Position numbers and translations under genes: made by a program | Notes under the pieces: model-generated | What the model was told of the DNA's origin: nothing | What the model saw: only the letters and a program-made list of their open reading frames with translations | Database searches by the model: none | Part shown: positions 4,221 through 37,622 of the stretch, piece by piece | Layout: every line of letters starts with the position of its first letter | Position numbering within the stretch: the first letter of the stretch is position 1 | DNA from: Betaproteobacteria bacterium | GTDB taxonomy: Bacteria; Pseudomonadota; Gammaproteobacteria; Burkholderiales; SG8-41 | Direction: 5' to 3' | Assembly: GCA_016868035.1 (NCBI GenBank) | Contig: VGID01000006.1 | Coordinates: 1-64,000, forward strand | Length of the DNA: 64,000 bases

Positions 4221-5186
4221 GTGCCGCTCTCCGAGTTCGAGGTGATCCGGCGTTATTTCACCCACCCGGCGCCGGGTGCGCGCCTCGGCGTGGGCGATGA
4301 TGCGGCGATCGTTGCCGCACGCCGCGGCATGGAGCTGGTCGTGACGACCGACATGCTGATCGCGGGACGGCATTTCGTTCGCGGGACCGACCCCCGCAGG
4401 CTCGGCCACAAGGCCCTTGCCGTGAACCTCTCGGACATGGCCGCGATGGGCGCGGCTCCGCGCTGGGCGACGCTCGCGCTCGCATTGCCGCAAGCCGATG
4501 CGCGCTGGCTGGCCGCGTTCTCGGCGGGGTTCATGGCCACCGCACGGCGGAACAGGGTGGCGCTGGTGGGAGGCGACACCACGCGCGGCCCGCTCGCGAT
4601 ATGCGTGCAGGTGATCGGCGAAGTGCCGCGAGGCCGGGCGCTCACGCGCGACGGCGCGCGCGCGGGCCACGACATCTGGGTATCGGGTACGCTCGGGGAC
4701 GCCGCGCTCGCCGTCGCTGCAGCGCGCGGAAAGCTGAAGCTCGCCCCCTCCGACCGCGCGCGCGTGCAATCGAGGCTCGACGCGCCCCGGCCCCGCGTCG
4801 AGCTGGGGCAGCGGCTGCGCGGTGTCGCGGCGAGCGCAATCGACATCTCCGACGGCTTGCTCGCGGACCTCGGCCATATCTGCGAGCGCTCGGGCGTCGC
4901 GGCCGTGATCGAGTTCGAGCGCGTCCCGCGTTCGGCCGTGTTGCGCAAGCACCTCGACCGGCCGGCTGCGCGCGCGGCGCTGCTTGCCGGGGGGGATGAC
5001 TACGAGCTTCTCTTCACGGCGCGCCGGTCGCGACGCGCGGCGATCTCGCGTCTTGCGCGGCGCGTGAAGGCCAGGCTTACCCGGATCGGGCGTACGGTGA
5101 AGGCGGGAGGCGCGCGCGTCACCGTGCTGGGACGCGACGGCAGGCCGCTGCGGGTCGAGGAAACGGGTTTTGACCACTTCGCCTGA
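4221..5186 (+). CDS. thiL: Thiamine-monophosphate kinase
   Basis: ATP-dependent kinase converting thiamine monophosphate to thiamine diphosphate. The 321 residues show the AIR-synthase-like fold signatures of ThiL: VGDDAAIV and TTDMLIAGRHF near the N-terminus, ALAVNLSDMAAMGAAP, the phosphate loop LVGGDTTRG, ISDGLLADLGH, and GGDDYELLF near residue 260. GTG at 4221 gives MPLSEFEVIRRYF, the normal start for the family. The 3' end overlaps the pgpA reading frame by up to 17 bases, an arrangement usual for thiL-pgpA in Proteobacteria. No defect is visible. Confidence 0.97.
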   Translation: MPLSEFEVIRRYFTHPAPGARLGVGDDAAIVAARRGMELVVTTDMLIAGRHFVRGTDPRRLGHKALAVNLSDMAAMGAAPRWATLALALPQADARWLAAFSAGFMATARRNRVALVGGDTTRGPLAICVQVIGEVPRGRALTRDGARAGHDIWVSGTLGDAALAVAAARGKLKLAPSDRARVQSRLDAPRPRVELGQRLRGVAASAIDISDGLLADLGHICERSGVAAVIEFERVPRSAVLRKHLDRPAARAALLAGGDDYELLFTARRSRRAAISRLARRVKARLTRIGRTVKAGGARVTVLGRDGRPLRVEETGFDHFA

Positions 5187-5673
5187 ACCGGCCGGCACGT
5201 TGTCATGGCGCTTTGTGCTCCGGCATCCGGCGCATTTCATCGCTTCCGGCTTCGGAGTCGGGCTCGCGCCCGTCGCACAGGGCACCTTTGGCACCCTGCT
5301 CGCGCTGCCGCTGTACTGGCTGCTCGCGCCGTGGCTCGACCCCGTCGCGTTTCTGCTGCTCACGGCGCTGCTCTTCGTGCTCGGCGTCTGGGCCTGCGGG
5401 GTGACGGGGCGCGACCTCGGGGCCGCCGACCATGGGGGGATGGTGTGGGACGAACTGGTAGGGTTTCTGCTGGTCCTGTTTTTCGTCCCGGCCACGCCGG
5501 CCGCGCAGGCCGCAGCCTTCTTGCTGTTCCGCGCCTTTGACATCCTCAAGCCGCCGCCGATACGCTGGCTCGAGCGGGGACTGCCCGGGGGCTGGGGCGT
5601 GATGGCGGATGACGTGATGGCCGCCTTTTATACGCTGCTCGTGGTGGCGATCTACAAATTCATGGTGGGGTGA
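5170..5673 (+). CDS. pgpA: Phosphatidylglycerophosphatase A
   Basis: Integral inner-membrane phosphatase that makes phosphatidylglycerol from phosphatidylglycerophosphate. Family motifs are clear: SGFGVGLAPVAQGTFGT near residue 30, VWDELVGF, FDILKPPPI, and the C-terminal GWGVMADDVMAAFY carrying the paired acidic residues. Three to four hydrophobic helices are visible across 167 residues. The 5' end is uncertain: TTG at 5170 overlaps thiL, and a second in-frame TTG at 5200 would also serve; neither has a strong ribosome-binding site, so expression is probably coupled to thiL translation. pncC begins 8 bases after the stop. Confidence 0.95.
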   Translation: MTTSPEPAGTLSWRFVLRHPAHFIASGFGVGLAPVAQGTFGTLLALPLYWLLAPWLDPVAFLLLTALLFVLGVWACGVTGRDLGAADHGGMVWDELVGFLLVLFFVPATPAAQAAAFLLFRAFDILKPPPIRWLERGLPGGWGVMADDVMAAFYTLLVVAIYKFMVG

Positions 5674-5680
5674 CCGGAGC

Positions 5681-6202
5681 ATGCCCGATCGCGTTCTGTA
5701 CGGTCTCGCCGAAACGCTCGGCGCGCAACTGAAGGCGCGGGAGCTCATGCTGGTGACCGCCGAGTCCTGTACCGGCGGCTGGATCGCCGAGGCGGTAACG
5801 ATGGTCTCGGGCAGCTCCGAGTGGTTCGAGCGCGGCTTCGTCACCTATACCTACATTTCCAAGCGCGAGATGCTGGGCGTGGACGGCGACACCCTGGGCA
5901 GGCACGGCGCGGTGTCCGAGCCGGTGGTGGGTGAGATGGCGCAGGGCGCGCTCGAGCGCAGCCACGCCCAGGTCGCAGTCGCGGTGAGCGGGGTGGCCGG
6001 GCCGACCGGCGGCATGCCGGACAAGCCGGTCGGAACCGTGTGCTTCGCATGGGGATTCCGGGGCGGCACGATGCATGCCGAGACGGTGCGGTTCTCCGGC
6101 GACCGCGAAGCGGTGCGCCGCCAGTCGGTGGAGCATGCGCTACGGGGCGTCCTTGCCCTGCTTGCACGCGAGGAGCAAGGCGCGCGCGGTGAGCGGAAAT
6201 GA
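5681..6202 (+). CDS. pncC: Nicotinamide-nucleotide amidohydrolase (CinA C-terminal domain type)
   Basis: Hydrolyses NMN to nicotinic acid mononucleotide in the pyridine nucleotide salvage cycle. The 173-residue protein is the stand-alone CinA C-terminal domain: AESCTGGWIAEAVT near residue 28 contains the nucleophilic Ser-Cys region, followed by FVTYTYISKREMLGV, SGVAGPTGG and PVGTVCFAW. The N-terminal MoCF-like domain of longer CinA proteins is absent, as expected for PncC. It lies directly upstream of recA, the placement common in Proteobacteria, 8 bases after pgpA, so it closes the rib-nusB-thiL-pgpA run. Confidence 0.95.
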   Translation: MPDRVLYGLAETLGAQLKARELMLVTAESCTGGWIAEAVTMVSGSSEWFERGFVTYTYISKREMLGVDGDTLGRHGAVSEPVVGEMAQGALERSHAQVAVAVSGVAGPTGGMPDKPVGTVCFAWGFRGGTMHAETVRFSGDREAVRRQSVEHALRGVLALLAREEQGARGERK

Positions 6203-35395: not shown

Positions 35396-35490
35396 ACCAC
35401 GAAGGACACCAAGGACACGAAGGAAAAAACGAAAATGAACCGCCAAGACGCCAAGCGCGCCAAGAAAAACAAGAACGATAATTGAACTCC
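35383..35490 (+). repeat. Nonamer-type repeat array downstream of btuF
   Basis: Units ACCACGAAGGACACCAAGG and ACACGAAGG (35397-35425), an A-rich spacer, then ACCGCCAAGACGCCAAGC with GCGCCAAGA (35439-35466). This is a direct-repeat array of the CACNAAGGA family; no clear inverted partner is seen before the attC site. Confidence 0.75.
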
Positions 35491-35520
35491 AGAGACGCCG
35501 AGGAATTCGGCGATCGAAAA

Positions 35521-35583
35521 ACTTAACGTCACCCTTCAGGGGCGCGCCGCTTGCGGCGCGTCCGCTGCAAGGGTTGGTTCGGC
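35521..35583 (-). other. attC-like integron recombination site
   Basis: Read on the minus strand: R'' box GCCGAAC (35583-35577), arm ACCCTTGCAG, a perfect GC stem GCGCCGC-AA-GCGGCGC, complementary arm CTGAAGGGT with one extra base, and R' box GTTAAGT (35527-35521) matching GTTRRRY. The order, the roughly 63-base length and the asymmetrical arms fit attC sites of integron gene cassettes. The stop codon of the DUF6602 gene is inside the site, and the encoded tail NQPLQRTRRKRRAPEG is of the kind that attC sequences specify. No integrase gene is in the window, so this would be a cassette outside an integron (CALIN-like). Confidence 0.75.
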
Positions 35584-36347
35584 GTCGCCGCATTGAGGTA
35601 CCGATCAAAGGACATTTGATACATCGGCATGCTCGCGATTGCAGGCAGGAGGTCGTTTACGAACCGCAGCAGCGAGTTTTCTATCTTCGCCTTGAGCCCG
35701 GTACGCGGCGTCGAGCATGGTTTCAGCGTCACGTACCAGTCAGACTCGAGAATTACGGCGCCGTGAATATGAGTCGGGTTAGCCTCTAGCGCATCGGCAA
35801 GGTCGCTCGTGAAAGCGCCTATATCGGCCCATCCCTTCTGCCGGATAGCAACCAGGTACGAGCGCGGCAGTGGCCTTGGGAGCTGAAACTGAATCTGTCC
35901 CGTGATGCTCTGCCCGGACTCAGTCGCATCTCTTGGTACTGCAGCGTAGGCGGCATACCATCGTTCGGCCGCAAGCACGCGGATTTTCTGAATGTCGGAA
36001 AGTATCTTTGCGAGGTTCTTCTTTTCGAGGAGGCGCTTTACTTCAACAGTCGCGTACACCATCTCTACTGGATACACATTTGAGGCCAATTCCCGATGAA
36101 GTGGTGCGTTGTCGAATTCATCGTAGATGACCACGTCCATATGCGAACTGGCCCCCAGTGCCTTGTTTGATGAGACAACCACCCCCGATCCAACAGAGAA
36201 ACGCCGGGGTAGTACCTGCCACAGAAAGTTTCGTACACGTTGCTCCTCATTCCGTCCACGCTCTCCCAAATGTTGAAAAACGGAACTACGCTTTGCTTTG
36301 AGAAGAAAACTCTCCCCGAAGCGTGTCGTAGTATTCCTGCACATCAA
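35529..36347 (-). CDS. DUF6602-like PD-(D/E)XK nuclease-fold protein in a gene cassette (frameshifted 5' end)
   Basis: A 272-residue reading frame whose core VGSGVVVSSNKALGASSHMD, VVIYDEFDNAPL and VYATVEVKRLLEKKN places an Asp and an E-x-K pair as in PD-(D/E)XK nucleases; this is the arrangement of DUF6602 proteins. Base composition is visibly lower in GC than its neighbours and the gene ends within an attC site, both pointing to transfer as an integron cassette. The natural N-terminus appears to lie in another frame (36286-36381): MRSPVARKPKTIDVQEYYDT then LRGEF, joining here at LLKAKRSSVFQHLGERG if one T of a TTTT run (36306-36309) is removed. Translation may begin internally or the gene may be dead. 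Confidence 0.72.
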   Translation of the reverse strand: MMCRNTTTRFGESFLLKAKRSSVFQHLGERGRNEEQRVRNFLWQVLPRRFSVGSGVVVSSNKALGASSHMDVVIYDEFDNAPLHRELASNVYPVEMVYATVEVKRLLEKKNLAKILSDIQKIRVLAAERWYAAYAAVPRDATESGQSITGQIQFQLPRPLPRSYLVAIRQKGWADIGAFTSDLADALEANPTHIHGAVILESDWYVTLKPCSTPRTGLKAKIENSLLRFVNDLLPAIASMPMYQMSFDRYLNAATPNQPLQRTRRKRRAPEG

Positions 36348-36381
36348 TTGTCTTCGGCTTCCTCGCCACTGGCGACCTCAT
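36286..36381 (-). pseudogene. Out-of-frame 5' segment of the DUF6602-like gene
   Basis: ATG at 36381 opens a 31-codon frame reading MRSPVARKPKTIDVQEYYDT, continuing LRGEF before running into TAG at 36286-36288. The next gene's frame overlaps it and takes over the similarity-like helix LLKAKRSSVFQHLGE. A one-base change in the T4 run at 36306-36309 would fuse the two into a single normal gene. It may reflect a mutation or a homopolymer sequencing error. Confidence 0.6.
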
Positions 36382-36743
36382 CGCGACGCCGAACGTGAAG
36401 TAGGTGGCCTAAAAGCTGGTTTGTAAATCGGCATTGCGCGCGCGGGGTTGTCATCGTTCAAGGGAATGAAGGCGTTAGAGGGGGAGGTTCCATAAGAATT
36501 CACGTCCAAAATTTGGGGGTTGGATATGCAGCAAAAACCGCAGGTTGCGGATGCTCTCCCAAATCCGGGTGAACTCCACGGGCGGGATCACGCGCCTGGT
36601 GCATGGGCTGGTGCTCGCGCGGGATGTCGTGGTGGATTACAGCGTTTCGCGAGCCGCGTGTGCTCGACTGAAATCCCGCGCGTTGAGCGGCGATTCCTCG
36701 TCCGCTCCAACGCGCGGAGTTAAACCGGCGCTTCGCGTCCAGT
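36382..36743. other. Gene-poor cassette-flanking region
   Basis: About 360 bases without a convincing gene. Composition is mixed: 36400-36520 is unusually AT-rich for this window, the rest is GC-rich. Short open frames exist, including a plus-strand one at 36545-36763 (RMLSQIRVNSTGGITRLVHG), but none shows a family signature or a good start. The distal end holds an attC-like remnant and a GTTAAAC/GTTTAAC pair (36719-36725, 36742-36748). It looks like degraded cassette DNA. Confidence 0.55.
36676..36725 (-). other. Degenerate attC-like remnant
   Basis: On the minus strand, GTTTAAC (36725-36719, matching RYYYAAC) is followed by the arm CCGCGCGTTGGAGCGG (36717-36702), an 11-base loop, and the complementary arm CCGCTCAACGCGCGG (36690-36676) lacking one base. 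An unpaired base in one arm is a hallmark of attC. The expected distal GTTRRRY box is missing, so the site would be inactive. Placed upstream of the DUF6602 cassette, it would be the preceding recombination point. Confidence 0.5.
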
Positions 36744-36968
36744 TTAACCGCGTTTGTAGGTGATCTTCTTCGTCCCGCCGTCGCAGCTGCCGACGACCTT
36801 GGCCTCGCCCACCTTGTCGTTGGGGACGATCTCCAGGGTGTAGGCCTTCACGCCCCTCTCCTTGAGCTTCGCCTCGATCTCGGCCTTCAGCTCCTCGCAC
36901 GGCTTCTTCTGCGCGAGCGCCGGGGAGGCCGCCAGCGCCAGCGCCGCCAACACGATCAATGGTTTCAT
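36744..36968 (-). CDS. DUF1161 family secreted protein
   Basis: A 74-residue exported protein. Signal peptide MKPLIVLAALALAASPALA is followed by QKKPCEELKAEIEAKLKERGV, YTLEIVPNDKVGEAKVVGSC and DGGTKKITYKRG, the DUF1161 pattern with two cysteines that probably form a disulfide. Role unknown; members are small periplasmic proteins of Proteobacteria. ATG at 36968 has AAGGAA upstream and is preferred over a longer in-frame start. The stop codon TAA lies in a GTTAAAC motif at the edge of the cassette region. Confidence 0.88.
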   Translation of the reverse strand: MKPLIVLAALALAASPALAQKKPCEELKAEIEAKLKERGVKAYTLEIVPNDKVGEAKVVGSCDGGTKKITYKRG

Positions 36969-37002
36969 GTGGGATTCCTTCCTACGCGCAATTTCGTCGA
37001 AC

Positions 37003-37075
37003 ATTCGTCAGCCGTCAGTCGTCACTCGTCATTCGCCAGCCGTCAGCCGTCACTCGCCAGTCGTGACCGGTCACC
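37003..37075 (+). repeat. Heptamer array downstream of the adenosyltransferase gene
   Basis: Nine or more units of the CGTCAGC / CGTCAGT / CGTCACT / CGCCAGC type in direct order (37007-37070), merging into GTGACCGGTCACCGG, which contains the adenosyltransferase stop codon. No spacer and inverted right array are obvious except the terminal GTGACCGGTCAC palindrome. Confidence 0.8.
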
Positions 37076-37622
37076 GGTTTTTCCCCTGCTCCCACAGCAC
37101 GTCGCCGCGCCCCGCGCGGCGGTTGAGCGCACGGGCCAGAACGAACAGCAGGTCCGAGAGGCGGTTCAGATACCGCATCGCGAAGGGGGGTGCCTGCTCG
37201 GCGCGGGCGAGCGTCACCACTCGCCGCTCGGCGCGGCGGCATACGGCGCGCGCGACGTGAGCGAGGCTGGCCGCCCGCGAGCCGCCCGGCAGGACGAACT
37301 CCTTCAGCGGCGGCAGGCCGGCATTGAAGCCGTCGAGCAGCCGCTCGAGCCTCGTCACGTGCGACTCGGTCATGATGGCGTGGCCGGGTATGCTCAGCTC
37401 GCCGCCGAGGTCGAAGAGATCGTGCTGCACTCCGGTGAGACACGCCTGCATGTCCTCCGGCAGCGCCTCGGCGGCAAGCACGCCGACCACGCTGTTCAGC
37501 TCGTCCACAGCACCGATCGCCTCGATGCGCGCCGCATCCTTCGCCACGCGCTCGCCGTCGGCGAGCCCGGTCGTTCCGGCATCTCCGGTGCGCGTGTAGA
37601 TCTTGGTGAGCCGGTGTCCCAT
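37071..37622 (-). CDS. Cob(I)alamin adenosyltransferase, PduO type
   Basis: Transfers the adenosyl group of ATP to cob(I)alamin, giving adenosylcobalamin. The 183 residues carry the PduO/MMAB signatures: KIYTRTGDAGTTGLADG for ATP, AIGAVDELNSVVGV, LFDLGGELS, and the C-terminal FVLPGGS with RRAERRVVTL and YLNRLSDLLFVLAR. It lies near btuF, so cobalamin import and activation are neighbours, though on opposite strands and separated by the cassette. The TGA stop falls within repeat DNA (GGTCACCGG). Confidence 0.95.
   Translation of the reverse strand: MGHRLTKIYTRTGDAGTTGLADGERVAKDAARIEAIGAVDELNSVVGVLAAEALPEDMQACLTGVQHDLFDLGGELSIPGHAIMTESHVTRLERLLDGFNAGLPPLKEFVLPGGSRAASLAHVARAVCRRAERRVVTLARAEQAPPFAMRYLNRLSDLLFVLARALNRRAGRGDVLWEQGKNR

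Follow-up and report, generated by a model that had tools for sequence, protein, structure and literature searches.

What is a DUF6602 gene of low GC content doing between B12 genes, and how did it come to stand there? The 64 kb analysed here (the window) open a contig of 102 kb (C6), which belongs to a 3.9-Mb draft genome in 127 contigs with a completeness of 98.3%. The neighbours of the DUF6602 gene in the window encode a periplasmic binding protein, a DUF1161 protein and a cobalamin adenosyltransferase, and there are no cyclases among them. An earlier note, made from the letters alone, had described the gene as low in GC and as a lone integron-type cassette ended by an attC-like site. The GC content bears out the former claim, at 0.556 for the cassette and 0.668 for the window. 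As to the latter, the explanation that we regard as probable is that the locus is the remnant of a chromosomal integron, consisting of an attI site and one cassette with a NucC-like DUF6602 gene, from which the integrase gene (intI) has been lost and in which the gene copy is probably a pseudogene. The coordinates of the features are collected in Table 1.

Table 1. Features of the cassette locus, in window coordinates
Feature	Position	Strand	Basis
Integron gene cassette, 867 bp	35527..36393	-	Crossovers between 36394 and 36393 and between 35527 and 35526, G/TT at both ends (slash, crossover)
Cassette 5' end GTTCGGCGTCGC (G, attI side), R' tail of the circular cassette	36383..36394	-	12/12 complement of GCGACGCCGAAC
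attC site	35521..35583	-	Covariance model R1 (site not in the training set): 66.0 bits, E 7.9e-13
DUF6602 gene main frame, predicted NucC-like PD-(D/E)XK nuclease	35529..36347	-	PF20247, E 5.9e-21
Putative original N-terminus MRSPVARKPKTIDVQEYYDTLRGEF, other frame	36306..36381	-	Sequence compared with homologues
attI-type site, intI missing	36394..36505	-	Found by a profile of the other 7 copies (E 6e-21), position 1 of which falls on 36394

The surroundings hold further features. An Rfam scan at gathering thresholds gave zero matches and a tRNA scan zero tRNAs. A dispersed repeat, its type represented by CCAAGGACACGAAGG / CGCCAAGACGCCAAG, occupies 35398-35510, directly after btuF, and parts of it match stretches near intI genes on contigs C37 and C54 of the same genome.

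The attC site and the ends of the cassette

To judge the attC-like site, which the earlier note had proposed to check with a covariance model, we built a model of our own that lacks it. The training set came from a simple attC finder run on stretches beside intI genes in the same genome and its relatives. The finder is not strand-specific, the expected strand having yielded 27 sites and the opposite strand 24; 24 of the 27 expected-strand sites were used, the other three (L091 1652, L095 4825 and L103 1499) having been dropped by hand. Covariation supports a structure in these 24 training sites (score 0.421; mean of shuffles 0.124). The window site matches the resulting model over its full length, and the runner-up among the five window matches listed reaches 19.3 bits. 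Applied to 18 stretches from contigs that bear integrons, this model finds 89 matches, the training sites among them; the highest scores 63.6 bits, as compared with 66.0 bits for the window site. Because it scores above all of these array matches under a model built without it, the window site is a typical attC of this lineage.

The anatomy of the site is that of an attC, with R'', L'', L' and R' and a bulged hairpin. R'' reads GCCGAAC and the in-situ R' reads GTTAAGT, of which the final six bases belong to the downstream flank, and an imperfect hairpin lies between these two boxes. In its integrated form the hairpin is more stable than most shuffles on both strands (z of -2.7 and -2.1). The stop codon of the DUF6602 gene (35531..35529) falls inside the site, so that each element of the earlier description, namely the R' and R'' boxes and the internal stop, is upheld. 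That the hairpin might instead be an ordinary dispersed repeat or a terminator is extremely improbable: GC-rich hairpins are common here, and the two that follow the DUF1161 gene resemble attC arms without R boxes, but the full-length match to an independent attC model, taken with exactly matching cassette ends, refutes such an identity in practice. These two hairpins (36679-36713 and 36717-36751, minus strand) score 19.3 and 9.4 bits, and hairpins like them are also visible at the related loci L030 and L032.

Over the genome as a whole, 150 of 8464 candidates were scored with the model, which leaves the list of further attC sites incomplete; the window site is the best of the nine matches. 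Further matches lie at C31:20420-20494 (40.2 bits), C12:70477-70537 (39.0 bits), C12:696-785 (26.0 bits) and C53:518-605 (21.6 bits), on contigs that have no full intI match. A similarity search with the attC in plasmids gave short matches only.

In integrons, the first bases of a cassette are the tail of the R' box that it carries. The tail found here is complementary, at 12 of 12 bases, to a sequence at the left margin of the attC (35588..35577), and the window has no second 12-of-12 match on that strand. When the cassette ends are joined, they rebuild the 12-bp R''/R' stem, and the bottom strand folds into a single long bulged hairpin of -37.3 kcal/mol, as compared with -24.1 kcal/mol for the integrated form. 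It is from the 12/12 ends and this joined-end hairpin that we derive the extent of the cassette given in Table 1. With a G/TT crossover at both ends and a start complementary to the left edge of its attC, the cassette is confirmed. The earlier note, which had placed it at 35521-36381, was thus right about the cassette itself and slightly short at its start. TTAAGT comes from the downstream flank, so that the empty site before insertion had a complete GTTAAGT box.

The DUF6602 product, its family and its reading frame

The nuclease-like D...ExK core that had been noticed in the DUF6602 frame proves to be a PD-(D/E)XK core, and both profile searches and fold comparison trace it to NucC. The PADLOC models for NucC match at E values of 5e-16 and 3e-14, and a PD-(D/E)XK model matches at 3.5e-28. 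Solved NucC structures are also found by profile, at E 3e-16 with three homologues and at E 4e-18 with eight. The structure predicted for one homologue (L063, not the window copy) is of moderate confidence, with a pLDDT of 68.6 and a pTM of 0.68; when it was compared with the PDB using Foldseek, all 14 matches at E<=0.001 were NucC (best E 8.3e-12, TM 0.68 by query length), with 17 to 24% identity in the alignments. The model of this homologue thus has the NucC fold. The catalytic triad of D, E and K is present as well: D71, E102 and K104 of the window frame, the putative catalytic residues, are invariant among homologues, and we take them to be the counterparts of D73, E104 and K106 in the active site of E. 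coli NucC, consistent with their positions in the alignment. The position of NucC R53 is occupied by R or K, arginine in most homologues, and that of Y81 varies; in NucC these two residues have a role in binding cA3. Judged by its sequence and by the modelled fold, the DUF6602 product is a predicted NucC-like PD-(D/E)XK nuclease.

NucC is an effector of CBASS and type III CRISPR systems, where it is encoded beside a cyclase. Among the 10 flanking genes of DUF6602 homologues, PADLOC recognised no cyclase, and no match to the Cas10 palm was found in the genome studied here; the pairing of effector and cyclase that marks CBASS and type III CRISPR is therefore lacking. A partial SMODS (CD-NTase) match does occur in the genome at C23:56001-56159 (L115), beside a gene with what by eye are SLATT-like membrane helices, and is perhaps the remnant of a CBASS system. 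NucC is described as cutting DNA upon activation by cA3 in PMC8682760. By analogy, we infer that intact members of the DUF6602 family are probably signal-gated DNases in phage defence.

The family is sparsely distributed. Relatives of the protein occur in 4 of 100 related genomes and, at E<=1e-15, in 4 genomes of a draw of 369 from the class, the genome studied here being counted in both cases; no DUF6602 protein was found in viral contigs. As to vertical inheritance in relatives, which the earlier note had named as contrary to its reading, the gene is absent from all nine other genomes of the same genus. The note had also pointed to the gap between btuF and the adenosyltransferase gene as a place in which relatives might retain an empty site. 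At the btuF loci read in 29 relatives (L030-L058), DUF6602 is absent from beside btuF in every case, and pduO or DUF1161 lies on the insertion side in 11; an alignment of the empty site to the base was not obtained, since the DNA around the insertion could not be so aligned in the six relatives compared.

A scan of contigs from the genomes yielded eight DUF6602 loci (L063-L070), two of which are clean cassettes, two partial ones and four, judged by attC and ends, not cassettes. The clean ones are L070, in Chromatiales bacterium USCg_Taylor (attC of 52.8 bits, 12/12 cassette ends 872 bp apart), and L066, in a Nitrospirae MAG (45.2 bits, 12/12 ends 822 bp apart); both adjoin host genes, and neither locus has a match to the profile of the attI-type element described below. 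Both partial ones are likewise in Nitrospirae MAGs: L068 terminates with a 29.3-bit attC, its start being cut off by the contig end, and L063 has a weak attC of 21.4 bits and no matching start. At L064, L065, L067 and L069 no attC was found at the end of the gene. Directly behind the L070 cassette is an AbiJ_NTD4 gene (4833-5750), which matches the candidate defence family PDC-S32 and is followed by another attC match, of 22.5 bits. A more distant DUF6602 gene is also found on the Acinetobacter baumannii plasmid pA2503 (NZ_MN495626.1 11411-12256, L142), with an Abi family gene on one side and a SEC-C gene on the other.

In the window copy, comparison with homologues points to a frameshift near the start of the gene, which the earlier reading had overlooked. 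The putative original N-terminus starts with the ATG at 36381; a one-base shift at a TTTT run (36309-36306) leads it into a stop codon, and downstream of the run the gene continues in another frame. By this comparison the window copy is probably a pseudogene with a frameshift in its first helix, unless the shift is an assembly error. We consider it a lesser but real possibility that the gene is intact, the frameshift being an assembly error or bypassed, and that the cassette makes a working nuclease. The remaining frame retains all three catalytic residues and reaches the normal stop, and the genome is a draft in many contigs; against this, the run at the shift is short, and the copy at L070 is likewise interrupted, in the middle of the gene, as expected of captured genes that are not under selection.

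The flanking element and the missing integrase gene

On its upstream side the cassette adjoins a conserved 112-bp element, which had likewise escaped the earlier reading. A search with 36394-36640 in 100 relatives, the genome studied here included, matched seven genomes at eight places, one of them the window. The matches to the seven other copies begin between query positions 1 and 6 and hence at the cassette junction, and about 115 bp are common to most of the aligned copies. The G/TT crossover is present in seven of the eight. In the profile search the window copy scores lowest, at 73.8 bits as compared with 95.9 to 108.2 bits for the other seven, which were themselves in the model. The copies adjoin different host genes, and the similarity of most of them stops at about the same base, ATAAAAATTC. 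A pattern match in genome G039 was rejected as a copy since the remainder of the element is absent there.

One copy (G015:C45) lies directly upstream of an intI gene (ATG at 1343) and has attC sites at 560-646 and 134-223, on its cassette side. The element profile also finds a diverged partial match just upstream of the intI gene on G019:C211 (E 9e-6), with CTTCAAG/TTAGC at the junction. Because one copy and one more distant homologue are directly upstream of intI, the 112-bp element is, by its sequence relationships, most likely attI; an attI next to the cassette, as in a complete integron, is thus identified by homology only. We also considered the flank as an upstream attC and dropped this idea, as neither the fold nor the model supports it and copies lie upstream of intI. 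Six of the eight copies, the window's among them, have a correctly oriented attC on their junction side. The copies in G008 (L138) and G078 (L139) are next to host genes and have no intI; the former has no attC and the latter a weak attC match in the wrong orientation. No intI was found beside the six copies in G004, G006, G008, G009, G078 and contig C46 of the genome studied here, in the stretches read, and with the window this makes seven of eight copies that have no intI found alongside. Given these seven copies and the two of eight that have no correctly oriented attC, the 112-bp sequence could instead be some other sort of dispersed element.

That no integrase gene is near the cassette had already been remarked, and it holds for the whole contig: there is no TIGR02249 match on C6, and a tblastn search found no remnant of intI at 36301-37100. 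The window locus thus lacks the intI next to attI that a complete integron has. Elsewhere the genome has a complete integron, whose intI on C37 is complete, as well as broken or partial intI genes on C35, C4 and C54. On C35 (34523-38896; L072 8524-12897), intI is split in two by three tandem tyrosine-recombinase-like genes on the opposite strand, an insert that we take to resemble a recombinase-in-trio. Integrase genes are common in these bacteria, with matches at E<=1e-60 in 52 of 100 relatives, including the genome studied here. By default IntegronFinder 2 recognises a CALIN from two attC sites upward, and a single attC can be true, according to PMC9024848. One attC was found in the window, the last 38 kb of the contig being covered only by the genome-wide scan, in which 150 of 8464 candidates were scored; with one site, below the default of at least two, and with an attI-type site present, the earlier label of CALIN is not retained. 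The locus is best read as a degraded integron that comprises an attI and one cassette and has lost its intI.

Under this reading, the attI (36505..36394, minus strand) would once have adjoined an intI gene, whose integrase would have recombined a circular DUF6602 cassette with the attI, giving the present cassette with its attC at the far end. The gene reads away from attI, and its promoter would lie at attI or further upstream; a sigma-70 consensus scan recognised no sigma-70-like promoter for the cassette. The intI gene would later have been lost and the cassette would have stayed, so that it could now be mobilised only by an integrase acting in trans. Intact members of the family would cut DNA once activated by a signal, cA3 by analogy with NucC, as effectors of phage defence, and the window copy, with its frameshift, would no longer do so unless the assembly is in error.

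Since the ends match at 12 of 12 bases and there is no intI nearby, we at first favoured insertion at a chance site (attG) by an integrase encoded elsewhere in the genome, the flank then not being an attI; after the flank search this became a rival explanation, and we now hold it to be quite unlikely. The complete intI on C37 could supply the enzyme, other lone attC matches exist on C31, C12 and C53, and the DUF6602 cassettes at L066 and L070 stand beside host genes with no attI-profile match. Insertion at attG sites is known and is mentioned in PMC12444791, a paper on the Xanthomonas integron. However, the boundary of the element coincides exactly with the cassette junction, both here and beside cassettes elsewhere, and the element lies upstream of intI in two genomes. 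As the flank is a conserved element with copies upstream of intI, the cassette does not appear to be a stray insertion at an arbitrary site.

It is also unlikely, in our estimation, that the flank is a dispersed attI without an intI of its own, a small unit that is kept or spread alone and served in trans rather than a leftover. Such a unit would fit with copies that stand beside different host genes, share an end in most cases and have no intI alongside in seven of eight cases. The copies are few, however (8 in 7 of 100 genomes), and the shared end might mean no more than that conservation ceases there.

Comparison with known systems

In the literature that we searched, we found no mention of DUF6602 and nothing on NucC together with an integron. 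The parts of this locus are of known kinds, and a NucC-like nuclease alone as a cassette is apparently undescribed within that literature. Through its likeness to NucC, DUF6602 gains a likely biochemical role. NucC-like lone cassettes with exact ends in three unrelated genomes raise the question of what activates an effector that lacks its cyclase. On a doubtful though conceivable reading, intact members would be stand-alone NucC-type effectors, one-gene defence units that pass between phyla via integrons and either respond to a cyclic-nucleotide signal borrowed from the host or detect infection on their own; in addition, attI sites lacking intI would persist in this bacterial family and be served in trans by an integrase encoded elsewhere in the genome.

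With the NucC of CBASS and type III CRISPR, the DUF6602 family would share the fold, the catalytic D, E and K and, in most homologues, an arginine at the R53 position; it differs in its low identity (17 to 24%), in a Y81 position that is not conserved and in having no cyclase alongside. Defence genes have reportedly been described as integron cassettes in studies of 2025 cited in PMC12444791, and a defence-type cargo gene is what the present cassette would have in common with them. The locus resembles a CALIN, or a single attC lacking an integrase, in having an attC without a nearby integrase; it differs in its attI-type site and in having one attC, where two is the default given in PMC9024848. 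With chromosomal (sedentary) integrons it shares an attI-type site, a cassette and an attC of the type found in the integrons of its genus, whereas it has no intI and a single cassette. The locus would thus illustrate an integron worn down to its attI and one cassette.
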